Part shown: positions 2,527-11,518 of the stretch, piece by piece
How positions within the stretch are numbered: position 1 is the stretch's first letter
Layout of the letters: each line of letters opens with the position of its first letter
Assembly (NCBI GenBank): GCA_013041785.1
Contig: JABDRK010000125.1
Span: 1-14,565 of the forward strand
DNA length: 14,565 nt
Origin: Eudoraea sp.
GTDB lineage: Bacteria; Bacteroidota; Bacteroidia; Flavobacteriales; Flavobacteriaceae
Reading direction: 5' to 3'
The notes under the pieces: generated by a model
Database searches by the model: none
What the model saw: only the letters and a program-made list of their open reading frames with translations
What the model was told of the DNA's origin: nothing
Translations under genes and position numbers: made by a program

Positions 2527-2919
2527 ATGATAATGGAATATTTAGCCATTGCCTTTAAACTGATCATCTTTATCAGCATTATCAATGTCTGGTTCTTCCG
2601 GTTCAATAATCCGACTCCCTATAGGGGCGGGGGAGCCAAGTCCATGAAGGAGGAATTTGAAGTTTATGGCTTTTCTACTTCGGTGGTGTATTTGATCGGT
2701 GCTTTAAAAGTCCTAACTGCTACAGCTTTGGTGGCCTCCTATTGGTACCCGGACCTTTCTACCCCTGCGGCTGCCGCGATGGGCATTTTAATGTTGGGGG
2801 CCATTTTTATGCACTTGCGTGCTAATGATCCCAACATTCGTTCCTTTCCCGCTTTGTTGTTCTTCCTGCTTTCGGTCGGGATCATTGTGATTGATATCCT
2901 CAGCGTGGAAATGCTTTAA
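2527..2919 (+). CDS. DoxX-like small integral membrane protein
   Basis: A 130-aa protein of four hydrophobic segments, matching the size and layout of the DoxX/DoxX-like family. The first helix is followed by the family-typical FNNPTPYRGGGAKSMKEEFE stretch and a short Tyr/Gly loop; later helices include AAAAMGILMLGAIFMHL and PALLFFLLSVGIIVIDIL. DoxX-like proteins are poorly defined membrane proteins, in some bacteria tied to redox or quinone-linked functions; nothing here narrows that. The frame also opens at a TTG at 2482, but that adds 15 polar residues ahead of the first helix and has no support, so ATG 2527 is chosen (ATG 2533 is a close alternative). It is transcribed alone, divergent from the membrane cyclase and convergent with the CBS protein. 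Confidence 0.8.
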   Translation: MIMEYLAIAFKLIIFISIINVWFFRFNNPTPYRGGGAKSMKEEFEVYGFSTSVVYLIGALKVLTATALVASYWYPDLSTPAAAAMGILMLGAIFMHLRANDPNIRSFPALLFFLLSVGIIVIDILSVEML

Positions 2920-2973
2920 AAATTCTATTAGCAGTACATTCACTATTTCATTGAGGTTGAAAAGTAACAGCAC

Positions 2974-3783
2974 CTATTTGACCTCACTCAATTTCTGGGA
3001 AATATCAATTAACAAGCTGTTGGTTAGCTTCTGCATTTCTACAACGCCCATGAATTTACCCTCCTTGGTAACTGGCAGGAAGACCGTTCCCAGTTTTTGC
3101 ATTTCCGTAAGGGCCTCATATTTCGCTGTTTCAGGGGTTATGGCCTCTTCAGCGGTGAGCATTCCGGAAATTTCCTTCAACCGGTCTCGGTCGTTATCCC
3201 TGAGGAGTTGAGCTACAGTGGCTGGTGAAAGATTGGAATTAGGTGCAAAAACCTGGGCCATAAAATTTTCGAGAGAGATCAGCCCCAGGAAATCATCACT
3301 GTCGTTATCGAAAATTAGGATATACTTTAAAGTAGACTGGGATAATGTCTTCAGATAGGATTCGATTTCAGCTGCTCCATAATTTTTATATCCTGCCTTA
3401 AAGATCAGGCCTTCCGGCTTTGCCCTTAAAATATCAACCAGAGCCCCTTCGGTAGCCTTTTCTGCCAGGTTGATCTCGATTTCCTTTGGATTAATCATAT
3501 CGATCAACTCTTCCGATTCTGACAATGGGGATTTTTGTGCTGCTTCGATCTTGTCCGATAGGGTAAATTCCAGGTCACCGTACTTAAACGTCTTAATCTT
3601 ATCTGTTAGCAGTAGCCAGATAACCAAAGGGATAAGTGCCAGCACCACATCAGAGATCTTGATCTCGTATCCCTGGCCTACTTTACGGCGCAGGAAAATA
3701 ACCAGGGCAATGGAAATTACAAAAATGACAATAGCAATTACCGTTTCCGGGTTGAGGAGTTCGGAGGCTAAATAATAGGTCAT
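2974..3783 (-). CDS. Membrane-anchored tandem CBS-domain protein
   Basis: A 269-aa protein with two N-terminal membrane helices (about 13-31 and 44-60), a linker containing KTFKYGDLEF, an acidic segment, and a soluble C-terminal region with two CBS-like modules (about 110-180 and 206-265). The second is clearest: KYEALTEMQKLGTVFLPVTK followed by GKFMGVVEMQKL, the usual CBS strand-helix pattern. CBS pairs generally bind adenine nucleotides and gate attached or partner proteins, including channels and transporters. Only 43 bp separate it from the upstream channel gene on the same strand, and it is the last gene of the inferred three-gene operon, so a regulatory role on the channel is a reasonable inference. 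A TACATTTA box in that 43-bp gap could give an extra internal promoter. The CBS call is by pattern, not by a profile search. Confidence 0.7.
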   Translation of the reverse strand: MTYYLASELLNPETVIAIVIFVISIALVIFLRRKVGQGYEIKISDVVLALIPLVIWLLLTDKIKTFKYGDLEFTLSDKIEAAQKSPLSESEELIDMINPKEIEINLAEKATEGALVDILRAKPEGLIFKAGYKNYGAAEIESYLKTLSQSTLKYILIFDNDSDDFLGLISLENFMAQVFAPNSNLSPATVAQLLRDNDRDRLKEISGMLTAEEAITPETAKYEALTEMQKLGTVFLPVTKEGKFMGVVEMQKLTNSLLIDISQKLSEVK

Positions 3784-3826
3784 AAAACAAGAATTGATTG
3801 TGTTTGCTTAAATGTAGGGAATTGTT

Positions 3827-4897
3827 TTATTCTATGTGCAAATTGTAATCCTGCAGCAGTTCCTGCCAGGATTTCTGATTGATTTTGCGCACCAGGAGTG
3901 GATTGATCCATTCCAGATGTTTACTGTTTTTGGGCAGGAAAAAACTCTTGTATTGTTGATTAAAACTGATGGGAAGAAGAACGGTCTTGCTTTCAAGCTG
4001 CATTTTGCCAATGAGGTAATCCAATACCGTTTTGTCATAAACCAGAACTTCTGTTTTCCTTGCAGCAAGTGCCAAAAGGGCATTTTCAACATCTTCAAAC
4101 ATAGCCTGCGGTTTAATTTCATTTTGCTTTAAAAAAGCCTCACTGCTAGAACCGTGTACGCTGGCGATATCCTGCGTATTGCGCAAATCCTGCAGGTCTT
4201 CTATGTTTCTGCTGAGGGAATTAACCGTGAGGGTTGAGGCAACGGTAGCCGTAAATCCTGAAATAACCAGAATAGCCGTAAACATCCATACCATGGCAAT
4301 ACCCCGCCCCAGCTTGGTTTTTGGAGCTTTGTCCCCGTAACCTACTGTGGTCATGGTTACCGCAGACCACCAAAACCCATCGAACAAACCAATAATATTT
4401 GGCCTGAATTGTCTGCGGTTGTGTCTGCGTTCCACTAACCAAAGGATGGTACCAAAAACAAAAATGGTCAGTACCAGCAACAAAATAAGCCTCAGGAACT
4501 GCAGGGAAAAGAAGTTCTGTAAAAAGACACGGACCTGGCTCTGCTGCGCCTGGGAAGTAGCCACCCCGAGAAAGGAAACATAAAACGGCTGGGTTACATC
4601 CAACAAGGTTAATCGCGTTTCGTTTACGTGTAGGGGATTTATGGAAATATCAATATCTTCAAAATCCAGCGCCCGTATTAACCCAAGGTGATCATTAAAT
4701 TCAACAAGTTCATAACTGACCTTTTTTTCTGCGGCAATACTATTCCATAGATCTACGCTTAATCCAGAAAATTCAGTTCCGTCCTTTATGACAAATGGGG
4801 GTTCATGCACTACACCCACTTTAAGGGTATCCATGTCCTGGGCCAGCCCCAAAATTGGGAACCAACTCAACAATAACAAGACAAGTAACCTTCTCAT
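3827..4897 (-). CDS. GluR0-like ligand-gated potassium channel (prokaryotic ionotropic glutamate receptor)
   Basis: A 356-aa protein with the full order of a prokaryotic ionotropic glutamate receptor: signal peptide (1-19), ligand-binding lobe S1 (about 24-115), membrane helix M1 (about 133-154), re-entrant pore loop (about 170-190), helix M2 (about 197-222) and lobe S2 (about 230-350). The pore carries MTTVGYGD at 182-189, the potassium selectivity filter, so potassium is the expected ion. M2 ends in SGFTATVASTLTV, echoing the SYTANLAAF gating motif of animal receptors. Arg95 (NETRLTLLDVTQPF) and Asp288 (LVYDKTVLDY) sit where glutamate receptors hold the ligand alpha-carboxylate and alpha-amino groups, so an amino-acid ligand is likely. 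It starts 3 bp after the sensor stop codon, implying translational coupling. An ABC transporter binding protein is excluded by the inserted pore. Confidence 0.9.
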   Translation of the reverse strand: MRRLLVLLLLSWFPILGLAQDMDTLKVGVVHEPPFVIKDGTEFSGLSVDLWNSIAAEKKVSYELVEFNDHLGLIRALDFEDIDISINPLHVNETRLTLLDVTQPFYVSFLGVATSQAQQSQVRVFLQNFFSLQFLRLILLLVLTIFVFGTILWLVERRHNRRQFRPNIIGLFDGFWWSAVTMTTVGYGDKAPKTKLGRGIAMVWMFTAILVISGFTATVASTLTVNSLSRNIEDLQDLRNTQDIASVHGSSSEAFLKQNEIKPQAMFEDVENALLALAARKTEVLVYDKTVLDYLIGKMQLESKTVLLPISFNQQYKSFFLPKNSKHLEWINPLLVRKINQKSWQELLQDYNLHIE

Positions 4898-4900
4898 TTT

Positions 4901-7789
4901 TTATGCGATTTGTTCCAGATAGGTGGCAAAAATCTGAATTGCCTTTCGGGTGTATTCGTCAAATAAATCTTCTTTATCGGCATAGACCGTCAGAATAGCT
5001 TCGCGATTTTTGATATAAAAAGGGACACTGATTGCTGCTTTATACGGTGCAATTCTCAGGTCTTTCTTTTCCAGAAGCTTACTGCTTTCTTCAGACAAAT
5101 TATTAAATATAAAGGCTTTGGCCTGAGCCATGCAATACGCTGCCAGAGAAATCCCAGGCTTGAAAGGCACCCTGGCCGAGGTAAATCCCCTTACCTTTTC
5201 AGAATATCCTTCAAATTCAATATGTTTCCCGCGATGAATCCCAATTTCATAGGCCACAACTCCAGGCAATTTCAATAAATCAAGCGAGATGGTTTCGAGG
5301 ACCAGCTCCCATTTGGTATCGGGCCCAATCTTGGAAAAAAGGCGGTGCATAATTTCCAGGATAAGGAGGTCCGCCTTTCGCTCACGAAGTTTATGGCGCA
5401 TTTCTTCCCGGAACTTCACCAAATCTGCCTCTTGTTTAATCACCTCGCCTTCCTTTTCCTCCAACCCCCTGTTCAAGTTTTTTAATATCAGTTGAAACCG
5501 GCGTTTTTGGGACCAGAACAGATAACCCATAGCAGCCAGCAGAAATGCGGCCAATGCCCATAGCAATACTTTATTTTTATACCAATACTGACGTACCGAA
5601 ATATCAATTAACTGAGGGGTACTCCATAAATACGCCCCTTCCTTTTTTGCCCTGACGGCCAATGTATGCTGTCCGGGAACTAATCCCGAAATAGCCAATG
5701 TAGCTTCCGTAGCAGGTGCAGACCATGTCTTATCGTTGATTTTGTACTGGTAGAAAATTCTGTACCCATGAAAGGACGGGGCGCTTACGTCAACTTGCAA
5801 CTCCTCATCCGGGTACATCTGTGGTGTGTTTCCTGAAGTGGACCGGCCATCAACCACAGTTGAAATCAACCAGGGTTTCTTGCTTTGTCCCGGTTTGGGA
5901 CTCGTATTTAAAGTATATACAACGCCTTCGGCGGTGCCGATCCATAGGCGGCCCTGCTCGTCCGATTGTATACAGCGGTAGGTCATTACCTTGCTGGGAA
6001 GTCCGCTTTCCTCCTGCATTACAATGGTATTGTCTGCCGTGTAGCGAAGCACACCTTCCGTATCAAAGGATATCCATATGCTTCCATCCGCTGAAGCAGT
6101 CACTGCCTTAACTTCTTTGTTGCTAAATTGGGGTCCCAGGTCTACCTTGCTCACCTGTTCCATATTATGACGCAGCAGGCCATCCGTAGATGCCAGCCAA
6201 ATGACCCCATTCTGGTCTACCGCCAAATCGTGAACCTGGAAATTAGGCCCTACGTAGAATTCAAAAGGCATACTGAGATTTACGAAACGATCTTCGTCTT
6301 CCAAGTAACGGTAGAGGTAGGTATCCCTGCCTATACCTGAAGCATAAATACGCCCCCTGGGGGTTTCCCTCAGGCAAATAATGCGATTTTCAAGACCGTA
6401 TTCAGCCCCGTAATCCCTAAAAGATCCATTGGGCAGTACGCATCCGATCCCTGGCAGGGGCTTATCTCTTGGCGCCTGGGCAACCCAAATCCGGTTGCGG
6501 CTGTCTCCTGCCAGATAAAAAATGCCTTCTCCCCTTTCCTCCAGGTCAATGGTCTTTATCCGCTTTCCCTTTTGGTTGAGCTCATGCAGTTTACCCGTAC
6601 TGGTTCCGGTCCAAAGACGATCTCCTTTGGTTGTAAGTGCTGTAATTGTTCCTAAGGAAGCCGTGGCAAGTTGTTCGCCCTTGTATCCATAATCCGTTTT
6701 TTCAACCCTATAAACATCTCCAAAATTGACAAATATGTTTCCATTATCTGCTATGGAAATGGCTGTAGTATTGGCATTAGGGATAGAGCCAATACTTTCG
6801 AAAAATCGCTTTTGCAGGATTCCCAATCCTTCAGATGAGCATATCCATAATTTATCCTCGGCATCAAATACAATACTGTGTATGTTTTTGAAAGGAAGTT
6901 CATTGAGGGTATGCGGATCATTGTTGCCATAGACCTTGATGAATTCCGGTCTGTTCCCGCTGGTTCGATCCAAATAATACAAGCCCTGATCCTGTATCCC
7001 GAGATATATGTTTTCCATCGTATCCAGGGCCAGCGCGCTTACCTTTCCCGGGGGGGATTGAAAGGACTCCTCGGTTCGAATTTCTTTGCCATCGGATGTA
7101 AGTTGATTCCGGTAGATCTTATCACTCGCAATCCAGAGCGCATTACCACTGGATTTCATATCGTTTATCACAGGATAAGCGGCCTTTTGCTCGAGTAAAC
7201 CAGATGTTTCGTTGTAAACATACAGGGAACCGTCACTATAGGCGATCCAGAGTTGCTCATTTAATTCAGCAAAAAAAAGTTCAAGGCCCCGTTTGGCTTC
7301 CTCCCCGGACCGGGGTAATACTTGTTTCAACCCTCCCTGGGAAATACGATGGACTCCACCACCAGGTTGCCCCACCAATATAGCTCCATTGCTCCGCTTG
7401 AAAAGACGGTTGGGGTAATACAGTAAAGGGTCATCGGGATCAATGGAGGCATTCTGTGAGAGGGATATTTTCGTTGTGTCCAATTCCGGTTGAATCAGGC
7501 TGATACCGGCATCATGGCTTAAAAGCAAGCCCTCAGCAGTTGCCAACAGGTATTTCCCATATTGACTTGGTACATATTGGGTATAGCTTTCGAATTGAAT
7601 TCCGTCAAATCGGACCAAACCTGCATCCGTGGCAATCCATGCAAAGCCCAGACTGTCCAGCGCAACATGCCTAACTTCATTTGAGGGAAGTCCGTTGGCA
7701 GCAGAATAATGGGATACGTGCATATTCTGCCCGTGTGCTAACTGGGTCAGACCAAGGACTACTATGAAGAAATACCCTATTTTTCGCAT
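4901..7789 (-). CDS. Periplasmic beta-propeller/Y_Y_Y sensor-like protein with C-terminal GAF domain
   Basis: A 962-aa protein. Residues 1-20 are a signal peptide. A long periplasmic region of Reg_prop propeller repeats follows (FAWIATDAGLVRFDG near residue 49; later KLWICSSEGL, RLWTGTSTGK, VIWLASTDGL, RLWIGTAEGV), then a Y_Y_Y domain (about 664-733), one membrane helix (about 740-759), a charged coiled coil (about 764-810) and a GAF domain (about 812-962, with GISLAAYC and ISVPFYIKN). The first half matches hybrid two-component and related sugar/polymer sensors of Bacteroidota, but no histidine kinase, receiver, helix-turn-helix, SpoIIE-type phosphatase or cyclase domain follows the GAF. The signal probably passes by the GAF or coiled coil to a partner. 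It is the first gene of a compact operon; the channel gene starts 3 bp downstream. A leader of at most 96 bp separates it from the GH16 gene. Confidence 0.88.
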   Translation of the reverse strand: MRKIGYFFIVVLGLTQLAHGQNMHVSHYSAANGLPSNEVRHVALDSLGFAWIATDAGLVRFDGIQFESYTQYVPSQYGKYLLATAEGLLLSHDAGISLIQPELDTTKISLSQNASIDPDDPLLYYPNRLFKRSNGAILVGQPGGGVHRISQGGLKQVLPRSGEEAKRGLELFFAELNEQLWIAYSDGSLYVYNETSGLLEQKAAYPVINDMKSSGNALWIASDKIYRNQLTSDGKEIRTEESFQSPPGKVSALALDTMENIYLGIQDQGLYYLDRTSGNRPEFIKVYGNNDPHTLNELPFKNIHSIVFDAEDKLWICSSEGLGILQKRFFESIGSIPNANTTAISIADNGNIFVNFGDVYRVEKTDYGYKGEQLATASLGTITALTTKGDRLWTGTSTGKLHELNQKGKRIKTIDLEERGEGIFYLAGDSRNRIWVAQAPRDKPLPGIGCVLPNGSFRDYGAEYGLENRIICLRETPRGRIYASGIGRDTYLYRYLEDEDRFVNLSMPFEFYVGPNFQVHDLAVDQNGVIWLASTDGLLRHNMEQVSKVDLGPQFSNKEVKAVTASADGSIWISFDTEGVLRYTADNTIVMQEESGLPSKVMTYRCIQSDEQGRLWIGTAEGVVYTLNTSPKPGQSKKPWLISTVVDGRSTSGNTPQMYPDEELQVDVSAPSFHGYRIFYQYKINDKTWSAPATEATLAISGLVPGQHTLAVRAKKEGAYLWSTPQLIDISVRQYWYKNKVLLWALAAFLLAAMGYLFWSQKRRFQLILKNLNRGLEEKEGEVIKQEADLVKFREEMRHKLRERKADLLILEIMHRLFSKIGPDTKWELVLETISLDLLKLPGVVAYEIGIHRGKHIEFEGYSEKVRGFTSARVPFKPGISLAAYCMAQAKAFIFNNLSEESSKLLEKKDLRIAPYKAAISVPFYIKNREAILTVYADKEDLFDEYTRKAIQIFATYLEQIA

Positions 7790-7829: not shown

Positions 7830-7885
7830 ATAAAAAAACCGAATACTTAAATAGAAAGCGCGGATTTGAAATCCGCGCTTTCTAT
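7830..7885 (-). terminator. Perfect 15-bp stem-loop after the GH16 gene
   Basis: ATAGAAAGCGCGGAT (7851-7865) pairs perfectly with 7871-7885 around a 5-base loop. The stem begins directly after the GH16 stop codon (7886-7888). On the minus strand a run of seven T follows at about 7832-7838, roughly 12 nt past the stem, which is farther than in a classical terminator. It probably terminates or protects the 3' end of the GH16 transcript and separates it from the sensor operon. Confidence 0.6.
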
Positions 7886-8743
7886 TCATTTTCGATACTC
7901 GTGTTTTACCCAGTCTACTTCCATAACCCATTCTCCAGTCATGGGGTTGTCTGTGATCTTGGCAAAATTCAGGATAGCAAACATAGGTTCCGGATAGTTA
8001 TCCCCTTCTCCTTCATTGCGATACACTTCTTCTCCATCCAGCCGATATACCAGGTCACTGCCTTCCCATTCTACAGAGTACTCGTGGTATTCGTCTAATG
8101 TAGCCGGGAAGTCTTTACGGTAGCTCCACCAGTCCCCTTTATCACATTCTCCCTGGCTTTTAATGGCCCCGGTCGTAAAGTGATCTTTTTTCACGTCCCC
8201 GTGATGTTCGAATATATCGATCTCACCGGATCCTGTCAGGGGCCAGCAGACCGTTTCATCGGCTTCCTGTACCGGAGGTTCATTATTCTGTGCTCCCATC
8301 AACCACCAGGCCGGGAACATACTGGGTTCTCCATTTCCATGAAGTCGCAAGCGGGCCGTCCATTTTCCTTTGACAAATTCCTTGCGGTTTTTGGAACAGA
8401 TGCGGCCGGCAACATACTCGGTATCTGCCTGTTGTTCCCCGTGCTTGTCCAGGTTATCACAGGGTCGTTTTTCGCCTATATTAACCACTTTAATTTTCAG
8501 GGTACCCTCACTCACTTCACGGGTCCCGTACTCCCCATCGGGAACATAGCATTGTAATTCGTTGTTTACCCAGATCCGCTGATCCTGCCAGTTTTCGGGA
8601 TTAAAGGTGTCAAAATCATCCAGAAAATCGGTTTCCCAGATTCCGGCTGTGGCAGTTTCATTTTGGTCTTCTTTTTTCTCCCCCATGCGGCAGCTAACAG
8701 AAAATAAAATTATTATTGCGAGGACAATACGTATTGGTTTCAT
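7886..8743 (-). CDS. GH16 family beta-glucanase (laminarinase-like) lipoprotein
   Basis: A 285-aa protein. Residues 1-17 are a lipoprotein signal peptide ending in the lipobox FSVSC with Cys18 as lipid site, so it is probably anchored to the outer membrane. The mature part is a GH16 jelly-roll enzyme: WVNNELQCYVPD near 58-69 and FPAWWLMG near 143-150 are typical substrate-cleft strands, and GEIDIFEHHG gives the ExDxxE triad, with Glu174 as nucleophile, Asp176, and Glu179 as acid/base. GH16 enzymes with this motif cut beta-1,3 or mixed-linked glucans such as algal laminarin; the exact substrate cannot be read here. The mature domain has five cysteines (65, 95, 116, 166, 200), more than usual by my reading. 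The gene is single, with no SusC/SusD pair in the window, and is divergent from a small unknown gene. Confidence 0.88.
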   Translation of the reverse strand: MKPIRIVLAIIILFSVSCRMGEKKEDQNETATAGIWETDFLDDFDTFNPENWQDQRIWVNNELQCYVPDGEYGTREVSEGTLKIKVVNIGEKRPCDNLDKHGEQQADTEYVAGRICSKNRKEFVKGKWTARLRLHGNGEPSMFPAWWLMGAQNNEPPVQEADETVCWPLTGSGEIDIFEHHGDVKKDHFTTGAIKSQGECDKGDWWSYRKDFPATLDEYHEYSVEWEGSDLVYRLDGEEVYRNEGEGDNYPEPMFAILNFAKITDNPMTGEWVMEVDWVKHEYRK

Positions 8744-9310: not shown

Positions 9311-9487
9311 GCTTTGTGTTTCCCGCTGGTACACTTCCTTCGACAATGCTTGGGATGAATTTCATGGTTTGACCTTATTATTTCAACTGATATCATATCA
9401 ATGTTTTATTAAGAGATCCCCTGTAAATTCATGGAGTAAGGCGAGGGCCTGAAAGACTTGTATTTTTCAAATGAAATAACCATCCAT

Positions 9488-11518
9488 ATGTCCAATAGAC
9501 GACTGGCAGCCATAATGTTTACCGATATTGAAGGCTATACTGCTTTGATGCAAAGGAGTGAAGTGGAAGCCATGGGATTTCGCGCCGCCCACAGAAAGAT
9601 CTTTGACAGCCTTACCACTAAGTTCAACGGTGAGATTATACAGTATTACGGGGACGGTACACTCAGTATTTTCGATAGTGCGGTTGATGCGGTTAAATGC
9701 GGCATAGCCATGCAACTGGCCTTTCGGAAGGACACTCAAATTCCCGTTCGCATTGGTATACATTCCGGGGATATTGTTCTTACCGAAGACGATATCATAG
9801 GCGATGCGGTGAATGTCGCCTCAAGGGTCGAATCTTTGGCTGTTCCCGGCAGTGTTTTGATTTCCGACAAGTTATTCGATGAAATAAAGAACAATAGCGA
9901 TATCAAAACCGTATACCTTGACACTTTTAGGCTAAAGAACGTAAAACCAGCACTTGGAATTTATGCCATTTCCAACGATGGGTTGGTTGTCCCACCCAGA
10001 AAAGCGATCACGGGAAAGCTTGAGAAAGAAAAATCAGTAACCAAACGGATCCTGGCGGGCGCTGCGATTGTTCTGCTGCTCGTTGCAGCATGGTTTGTTC
10101 AGGATTTACTGCAGGTAACTAAGGAACAGACCATCGTCCTTCTACCCCCTAAAAACTACACCGGTGAAGAAGATCTTGATTATCTGGTGGAAGGCGTCCA
10201 TGACCTGTTGTACGGAGACCTTTGCAAGGTAAGTGATAAACTGCGGGTAATTTCCCCGTTTACAGCCCGGGCGCTTACCAATGCGGGCAAATCCATGTCT
10301 GAAATAGCCGCTGAGTTGGATGTAGATTATTTCCTGGAAACTTCTATCTCCTGTGTGGAAGGGGATAATTTATGCATCAATCCCCGTTTGGTTGAATTCG
10401 ACACCGAAGAAAGGCAGCTCTGGACCGAAGAATATTTTGAAAAAAAAGGGGAGATCCTCAATTTCAACCACTTCCTGGTCAATAAAATCGCAGATGACAT
10501 AAACATACAATTGACCCCGGATGCAGAACTGGCTTTAGCAAAATCCAGTTCCGTAGATACCGCGGCCATTGACCTGTACCTACGTGGAGAGTATTACCTG
10601 GATCAGTTCAACCCCATGACAATTGCCAAGGCGGGTGAGCTTTTCAAACAGGCCATTGCAAAGGATCCGGACTGGGGCCTGCCCTATGCAGGTTTGTCCT
10701 TGGTCATCGCTTACCAAATGCAATTGGGATTTATCCCTCCTGCAACAGGTATTCCAAAACTGAATGAGTACCTTGCCCTTGCTTTTGAACTGGATCCCAA
10801 TTCTTCCCGGGCTTACCTGGCCAAAGCAATCAGTGCAGGCTGGCATGAGTGGAATTGGAAGAAAGCAGAAACAGCTTTCCTGGAATCCTTAAGGTGGGAT
10901 CCCAACGATCCATTGTGCAGGGGATTTTATGCTCACTTTCTGATGACACAAAGGCGAAACGATGAAGCATTAAAACAAGGTCAGGTTGCTGAGCGTCTTG
11001 ACCCCTTAAGGCCTTTTGTGCTGGGACTGAATAGCCAGGTAGTTGGACAGACAGGTGATCATGAAGCAGCCCTGGCTAAGGCGGAAAAAGCATTATCTAT
11101 CGATCCCGATCACTTCTTAGGAATATTATCCGCATGGGGGGCCTTGAATGCTAAAGGAGATCATGAGGGAGCCTTTAAATATCTTACGGAACTTAACTCG
11201 CCCATTTGGGAAAAATATGGCGTTGCTGACTTATTGGAGCAGACCTTCAATGAACATGGCAGGATAGCATTTTTAAAGGAATATATCCGTTTTAATGAGG
11301 AGATTTTGGCAAAAGATGGTCTCTTAAATAACTTTTACCAAGCCTTCAATTATATTGATACAAATAATTACGATAAGGCATGGGAGTCCTTTGAACAGGC
11401 TTTAGATAGACACAATCCGAACATGCCCTACATTTCTACAACTTACCATTACAACATGTTGAAGGGCTACCCCGAATATTTGGCCCTTTTGAAAAGAATG
11501 AATCTGCCCACCGAATAG
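9488..11518 (+). CDS. Class III nucleotide cyclase with transmembrane TolB-like/TPR C-terminal half
   Basis: A 676-aa protein. Residues 5-165 form a cytoplasmic class III cyclase domain: AAIMFTDIEGYT with metal Asp13, IQYYGDGTLSIF with metal Asp56, and DDIIGDAVNVASR with Asp102 (adenine side), Asn109 and Arg113. The usual base-reading Lys is Gln52. A linker leads to one membrane helix (about 188-205). Beyond it, presumably in the periplasm, lies a TolB-N-like alpha/beta domain (about 214-342, IVLLPPKNYTGEEDLDYLVE and LDVDYFLETSI), then tetratricopeptide repeats (about 360-670). This fusion is a known large family in Proteobacteria and Bacteroidota, thought to couple an extracytoplasmic interaction to cAMP production. 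The frame also opens at TTG 9458, but MSNRRLAAIMFTDIEGY is the normal N-terminus for the family, so ATG 9488 is used. Single gene; a hairpin follows about 95 bp downstream. Confidence 0.9.
   Translation: MSNRRLAAIMFTDIEGYTALMQRSEVEAMGFRAAHRKIFDSLTTKFNGEIIQYYGDGTLSIFDSAVDAVKCGIAMQLAFRKDTQIPVRIGIHSGDIVLTEDDIIGDAVNVASRVESLAVPGSVLISDKLFDEIKNNSDIKTVYLDTFRLKNVKPALGIYAISNDGLVVPPRKAITGKLEKEKSVTKRILAGAAIVLLLVAAWFVQDLLQVTKEQTIVLLPPKNYTGEEDLDYLVEGVHDLLYGDLCKVSDKLRVISPFTARALTNAGKSMSEIAAELDVDYFLETSISCVEGDNLCINPRLVEFDTEERQLWTEEYFEKKGEILNFNHFLVNKIADDINIQLTPDAELALAKSSSVDTAAIDLYLRGEYYLDQFNPMTIAKAGELFKQAIAKDPDWGLPYAGLSLVIAYQMQLGFIPPATGIPKLNEYLALAFELDPNSSRAYLAKAISAGWHEWNWKKAETAFLESLRWDPNDPLCRGFYAHFLMTQRRNDEALKQGQVAERLDPLRPFVLGLNSQVVGQTGDHEAALAKAEKALSIDPDHFLGILSAWGALNAKGDHEGAFKYLTELNSPIWEKYGVADLLEQTFNEHGRIAFLKEYIRFNEEILAKDGLLNNFYQAFNYIDTNNYDKAWESFEQALDRHNPNMPYISTTYHYNMLKGYPEYLALLKRMNLPTE

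Follow-up and report, generated by a model that had tools for sequence, protein, structure and literature searches.

A conserved pair of genes, encoding a membrane sensor with a predicted periplasmic propeller region and a potassium channel of the GluR0 type, was found in a contig of Eudoraea sp. (JABDRK010000125.1). The whole stretch analysed, hereafter the window, is a single contig of 14,565 bases from a draft genome totalling 2.37 Mb. The channel gene lies directly downstream of the sensor gene at 19 of 19 loci, the window and 18 others. We tentatively propose, as a reading that stops a little short of even chances, that the two genes form a module in which a glycan receptor of the kind found in hybrid two-component systems (HTCS) associates with the GluR0-type potassium channel and modulates its gating. 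A preliminary description of the window had joined both genes to a third one in a single signalling unit. The open reading frames (ORFs) that it gave, their common strand and the spacings of 3 bp and 43 bp between them were exact on re-measurement:

4901..7789, minus strand: sensor gene, 962 residues, with signal peptide, propeller region, Y_Y_Y-like domain, one transmembrane segment, coil and GAF-like C-terminus
4898..4900, minus strand: spacer of 3 bp between the sensor stop and the channel ATG
3827..4897, minus strand: GluR0-type channel gene, 356 residues, with signal peptide, S1, M1, pore loop, M2 and S2
2974..3783, minus strand: third ORF (hereafter the orphan), 269 residues, with two transmembrane segments and a CBS-like but unproven C-terminal domain; outside the conserved unit

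Conservation of the sensor-channel pair

A search of 397 Flavobacteriaceae genomes at E <= 1e-40, in which two candidates were scored per genome so that extra copies may be missed, located the sensor at 19 places in 16 genomes. The co-occurrence check put forward in the preliminary description bore out the order of sensor and channel at every one of these loci and failed for the third gene, which was found at none of the 18 loci outside the window. A second channel copy in the window's own genome (C399) begins inside the channel at a contig end and is not among the 19. In the 18 other pairs, possible channel starts lie between -14 and +32 nt from the sensor stop, and a 4-nt overlap is possible at 7 of them; at one locus (L179), on a contig of a metagenome-assembled genome (MAG), the channel is split across two frames and no start was identified. 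Within a set of 149 genomes, at most five candidates being scored in each, the sensor occurred in 7, all of them among the 23 that bear the channel (Fisher p 9e-7, the genomes not being independent).

The surroundings of the pair proved variable. With the window excluded, and with families built from mechanical gene calls, the upstream neighbours at 17 loci represented 13 families and the downstream neighbours at 18 loci represented 14. Thus, the pair outlives its surroundings, and the same comparison revealed no other partner gene conserved beside it across the family. Pairing is kept down to about 45% identity between channels and about 27% between sensors. Three genomes (G126, G103 and G684) carry two divergent copies each, every copy with its own partner.

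Evolutionary distances among sensors mirror those among channels, with a correlation of 0.886 over 44 pairs that none of 2000 permutations equalled. Thirty-four of the 44 pairs were themselves deduced, by matching sensor and channel clusters having the same size of longest contig among the best 120 of 3,631 channels; such equal-size matches were obtained for 34 of 80 sensor clusters and for none of 40 other propeller proteins, the sensor side being drawn from the best 120 of 218 hits. For the sequences compared, the correlation shows that partners have not been swapped, and shared inheritance alone would also be expected to yield it.

In a tree of 57 channels, 12 paired channels formed one clade and the other 45 were solo, meaning that the sequence fetched around the channel, some 1.5 kb to either side for L074-L101, showed no adjacent sensor. 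The tree took one channel per locus and omitted L066, L067 and L068 (which coincide, or nearly coincide, in position with L038, L039 and L069), L046 and L064 (cut), L073 (far), L092 and L099 (no channel ORF called) and channel ORFs shorter than 300 residues. Since the paired channels form one clade, a single origin of pairing is the simplest reading. By their channels, the nearest named relatives are Lentiprolixibacter aurantiacus, Flavobacteriaceae bacterium D16 and Robiginitalea/Eudoraea MAGs. Given the number of solo channels in the tree, we rejected the idea that GluR0-type channels in general have a dedicated sensor; Pfam identified no sensor among nine upstream neighbours of solo channels, whereas a tenth neighbour, in L059, bears a Cache sensor domain.

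The sensor protein

Four regions were delimited in the sensor:

5900..7729, minus strand: Reg_prop propeller region, residues 21-630 (Pfam, strands of the model, matches to HTCS structure profiles)
5594..5872, minus strand: Y_Y_Y-like beta domain, residues 640-732 (model; Y_Y_Y called only in the relatives P0190 and P0196)
5513..5569, minus strand: core of the sole transmembrane segment, residues 741-759 (hydropathy scan; basic C-terminal side; inside model helix 740-779)
4907..5311, minus strand: GAF-like C-terminal domain, residues 827-961 (Pfam below cut-off, several relatives above it, model)

The propeller part of the label given in the preliminary description, a propeller/Y_Y_Y/GAF sensor, stood at once, Reg_prop scoring 77.4 bits against a Pfam cut-off of 20.4. 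The other two parts found some backing in the structure model and in relatives. Pfam made no Y_Y_Y call in the window sensor and placed GAF_2 at 26.5 bits, slightly below the cut-off of 28.6. Among eight relatives scanned, GAF_2 exceeded the cut-off in L041 (35.6 bits), P0184 (35.5) and P0198 (34.3), and Y_Y_Y did so in P0196 (36 bits) and P0190 (32.8). An AlphaFold2 model built on 42 sequences (mean pLDDT, the predicted local distance difference test score, 86.1) placed an N-terminal helix first, then propeller strands ending near residue 626, a beta domain (640-732), a long helix (740-779), a coil helix (791-820) and an alpha/beta domain (827-961) at the GAF position. We read the propeller region as two propellers and the modelled beta domain as a Y_Y_Y domain preceding the membrane. 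This predicted fold rests on the model together with profile matches: against the Protein Data Bank, the best hits of the sensor-family profile were the HTCS sensor domains 3v9f (E 1e-44), 4a2l and 3ott. A distant match of the propeller part to PorZ of the type IX secretion system (69.9 bits) fell far below the 260-bit cut-off; PorZ has been described as a surface component of that system.

As laid out in the available text of PMC3243724, HTCS glycan sensors have periplasmic Reg_prop propellers followed by a Y_Y_Y domain and a single transmembrane segment; the window sensor appears to share the propellers and the single segment, and probably the Y_Y_Y domain. The two differ beyond the membrane: domain profile searches of the window sensor detected no kinase, no receiver and no helix-turn-helix (HTH) or other DNA-binding domain, where an HTCS protein has a histidine kinase, a receiver and an AraC-type HTH. 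In their place it has a coil and a GAF-like end, and it is encoded with a potassium channel. Lacking kinase and HTH, it is not an HTCS by membership, yet it is built like one and may sense in a similar way. Within HTCS proteins, ectodomains of this type bind specific oligosaccharides, and the HTCS sensors that carry them switch on polysaccharide-utilisation genes, according to the same text (PMC3243724).

The sensor family is well separated. Among the best 120 of 218 matches, 80 proteins scored at least 642 bits, the next one 346 and the remainder 238 or less. One member, P0123 (Eudoraea sp. in NCBI), is 98% identical to the window sensor, and another, P0196, is labelled Cytophagales by its source. 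A phylum search with the sensor profile, with two candidates scored per genome, gave outside the window only matches ending at or before position 858 of 977; since most or all of the GAF part was left unmatched, this search does not extend the family. No catalytic or DNA-binding Pfam domain was listed for 79 of the 80 proteins (P0122-P0200). In the 80th, P0201 (1308 residues), a PAS-GAF-HisKA-HATPase arrangement replaces the short GAF end. P0201 is nested within the sensor tree (placement support 93), which suggests that this type of receptor may be able to drive cytoplasmic outputs. A kinase joined to the same receptor type also fits, as one case, the idea that the channel stands in for the kinase in the pairs.

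The channel protein

Lig_chan, Ion_trans_2 and SBP_bac_3 each exceeded the Pfam cut-off in the channel. Taken with profile matches and a hydropathy scan, in which no third transmembrane segment was found, they define the layout S1-M1-pore loop-M2-S2 of GluR0. The channel profile matched the bacterial glutamate-receptor domains 2pyy and 1iit as well as AMPA receptors (GluA2). Three sites stood out:

4328..4351, minus strand: potassium selectivity filter TTVGYGDK, residues 183-190, invariant in 44 of 44 paired channels
4613..4615, minus strand: Arg95, ligand-binding arginine of S1, in 44 of 44 paired channels, aligned with the arginine of GluA2 and GluR0
4034..4036, minus strand: Asp288, ligand-binding aspartate of S2, in 42 of 44 paired channels, aligned with the aspartate of GluR0

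An arginine and an aspartate are the residues named for glutamate binding in prokaryotic glutamate-receptor channels (PMC2950845, available text). By its sequence features the channel is a predicted Group 1 prokaryotic ionotropic glutamate receptor, and the GluR0-like label of the preliminary description held for layout, filter and ligand residues alike. With GluR0 itself (Synechocystis Slr1257) and the rest of Group 1 it shares the S1-M1-P-M2-S2 order, the filter and the Arg and Asp residues, as far as these are set out in PMC2950845 and PMC13099474; it differs in being paired with a second receptor gene. GluR0 carries potassium in Escherichia coli and has a role in cell volume in Synechocystis. 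The 2026 report of that role, from one cyanobacterium, claims in its available text to be the first to give direct evidence that a prokaryotic homologue of glutamate receptors with potassium-channel activity has a role (PMC13099474).

We know of no GluR0-type channel for which a dedicated sensor partner has been described.

Other arrangements were seen around relatives of the channel. A uracil phosphoribosyltransferase gene follows the second-paralogue channel at L041, L045, L046 and L172, the copy from the window's own genome being among these; the assignment came from Pfam in L041 and L046, and the 217-residue gene seen at L045 and L172 falls into one group with its counterpart in L041. In L059 (1894-4008, genome G116), a 704-residue Cache-domain protein ends 12 bp before a GluR0-like channel that has no propeller sensor. 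By eye, the C-terminal half of this protein resembles a pentameric ligand-gated channel, a likeness that a search against solved structures did not confirm. In another Bacteroidota family (L076 and L077), solo GluR0-like channels lie 63-75 bp behind a same-strand Proton_antipo_M gene, presumably an antiporter or NADH dehydrogenase-like gene.

Models for the sensor-channel pair

A neighbouring gene bears on the candidate ligand of the sensor:

7886..8743, minus strand: GH16 gene (EIDIFE motif, lipoprotein-like N-terminus), found next to the pair at 7 of 19 loci

GH16 lies upstream of the pair at five loci (the window, G126, G103, G684 and G536) and downstream at two (G062 and G106). In the 149-genome set it occurs in 10 genomes, including 6 of the 7 that bear the sensor. 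The link between GH16 and the pair is suggestive, not strict. The ligand of the sensor is possibly a glycan fragment, and the GH16 neighbour present in part of the family hints at a beta-glucan.

We postulated that a periplasmic glycan fragment would alter the state of the propellers and the Y_Y_Y domain, and that this change would pass to the channel, either along the membrane or through the rod formed by transmembrane segment, coil and GAF domain. Potassium flux through the amino-acid-responsive pore would then rise or fall, the channel's own ligand being presumably an amino acid bound by its periplasmic domain. The analysis shows the order of the genes, their close spacing, linkage and parallel divergence, the domain anatomy, and the conserved filter and ligand residues; we infer a shared transcript, contact between the proteins, gating set by the sensor, the direction of the effect and both putative ligands. 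A bolder form of the proposal, which we hold to be rather unlikely, is that the pair is a natural two-gene receptor-gated potassium channel in which an HTCS-type ectodomain has exchanged its kinase for a channel, converting a glycan and an amino-acid signal into a response of membrane potential or potassium. Potassium channels coupled to receptors (GPCR-Kir6.2) likewise place a potassium pore under a separate receptor fold; as presented in the available text of PMC5286527, these were artificially designed, whereas the pair consists of separate natural genes.

Several points weigh against the proposed module. The support of the paired clade (SH-aLRT, the Shimodaira-Hasegawa-like approximate likelihood ratio test, 88) is below the value of 95 starred by the tree tool, and L071, the channel nearest to the clade from outside, has no adjoining sensor. 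Pairing appears to have arisen once, so that the 19 loci do not count as that many independent events, and linkage could mean co-expression only. Many relatives of the channel occur without a propeller sensor. The 26 positions by which paired channels can be told from solo ones fall in S1, S2, M1, M2, the pore and the loops. The case for a glycan ligand is drawn from fold likeness and from GH16 at 7 of 19 loci, and in 4 of the 10 GH16-bearing genomes both sensor and channel are lacking.

A contact face was sought among the 26 paired-specific positions. They were unclustered and no clear face emerged, so contact is neither supported nor excluded by them.

Co-regulation of two independent proteins, the GAF domain of the sensor signalling to another partner and the channel answering only its own amino-acid ligand, is the main rival reading, which we place on the improbable side. 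GAF domains are common components of other signalling pathways, 45 of the 57 channels in the tree manage without an adjoining sensor, and a class III cyclase gene, syntenic in two relatives, lies close by; all three observations would suit independent action. A setting for co-regulation might be polysaccharide feeding accompanied by osmotic or nitrogen shifts. However, no other partner gene is conserved beside the pair across the family, and direct partnership would account better for the 19/19 linkage, the tight spacing and the parallel divergence.

The roles could also be reversed, with amino-acid binding or potassium flux in the channel being read by the sensor, whose GAF domain would act on a cytoplasmic target. 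The complete ligand-binding domain of the channel and the existence of a kinase-bearing sensor (P0201) are in keeping with this arrangement, which is nonetheless decidedly unlikely, P0201 being the only one of the 80 listed sensor-family proteins with an enzymatic output domain.

If the module of HTCS-type receptor and GluR0-type channel does operate as proposed, glycan sensing would gain a rapid output, electrical or osmotic, through the potassium channel, and the GluR0 family a dedicated partner protein. Among open-licence papers, in their available text, no description of a propeller sensor paired with a GluR0-type channel was found. The flavobacteria that bear it include isolates with genomes (Lentiprolixibacter aurantiacus and strain D16), which makes the coupling directly testable.

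The third gene

The orphan ORF is probably a real gene: its codon use is coding-like (0.20 in frame, against -0.11 to -0.49 in the other five frames). The hydropathy scan gave two transmembrane segments, in agreement with the "membrane protein" part of the earlier label; its CBS domain fared less well. Pfam gave no CBS match at E <= 1, and the orphan was absent from a PF00571 search of its own genome at E <= 0.001. A CBS profile made from that genome (8 of 14 PF00571 matches) was tried on the orphan and rejected, as it scored no better than on shuffles. The sole hint at sequence level came from the entry 5g5r, titled a site-2 protease, with 13.4 bits for its best stretch at an overall E of 0.14; we take this entry to be the CBS part of the protease. 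A poor structure model (pLDDT 47.9) gave non-significant fold matches (best E 0.027), of which 46 of the 50 listed were AMPK, cystathionine beta-synthase, CNNM, ClC and other CBS-type entries, the AMPK chains being presumably the CBS-bearing ones. The CBS label is plausible and unproven. That such a module might read cytoplasmic nucleotides, as had been suggested, is doubtful. The loop between the two transmembrane segments is basic, and basic loops favour the cytoplasmic side (the positive-inside rule), so a periplasmic C-terminal domain is favoured; the charges are not decisive.

Relatives of the orphan were not found. Only the orphan itself appeared among 2,010 candidates scored from 5.8 billion proteins, in a search that finds only relatives having short exact words in common; in the 149-genome set only its own genome matched (E <= 1e-5). 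By tblastn (E <= 0.1) there was no match in 24 fetched pair-bearing stretches, representing the 18 other loci, some of them twice. In the genus's two other genomes all matches were weak (best E 0.001), and the strongest in each genome fell inside a DHDPS gene; no match to plasmid or phage sequences was obtained at E <= 0.01. Comparison with L065 and L066 by blastn delimited the segment concerned:

2902..3822, no strand assigned: segment carrying the orphan, without DNA match in L065 and L066

Similarity to both loci covers sensor and channel, breaks off at 3823-3829 and is found again from 2897-2901, in a DoxX gene. Thus, the orphan sits in a segment of about 920 bp that has no counterpart there. 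L065 has instead, after its channel, a SnoaL-like gene of 162 residues; a link between this gene and the orphan was considered and rejected, there being no real similarity. The orphan, seen only in the window's species, has the look of a chance neighbour and not of a part of the conserved sensor-channel unit.

The three-gene unit of the preliminary description, in which a CBS protein would read cytoplasmic nucleotides and tune the channel, may be dismissed as extremely unlikely: the common strand, the 43-bp gap, the coding-like codon use and the CBS-like fold matches speak for it, and against it stand the absence of a relative from the protein search, from 148 other family genomes and from the 18 other loci (only weak matches in two other genomes of the genus), the non-syntenic segment, the unconfirmed CBS domain, the doubtful topology and a weak promoter-like site just before the gene (3842-3809, one mismatch, one of 6 on the minus strand of the window).

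Neighbouring elements

A strong stem separates the sensor from GH16:

7850..7886, no strand assigned: near-perfect palindrome of 37 nt between GH16 and the sensor

The palindrome is terminator-like on the plus strand only, in a region where 7 terminator-like sites were found against 8.0 expected. Stem-loops occur at the corresponding place in L065 and L066. The 27-nt core of the palindrome has one occurrence in the window's own draft genome (up to 2 mismatches), whereas 21 kb of Lentiprolixibacter sequence in L065 contain several nearly identical copies, as if it were a dispersed palindromic element there.

Class III nucleotide cyclase genes flank the pair on both sides, at 1221-2336 and 9458-11518; no partner responding to cyclic nucleotides was recognised. 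The product of the first has four hydrophobic segments and scores about 30 bits against Pycsar cyclase models, and synteny of this gene extends to D16 and Lentiprolixibacter.

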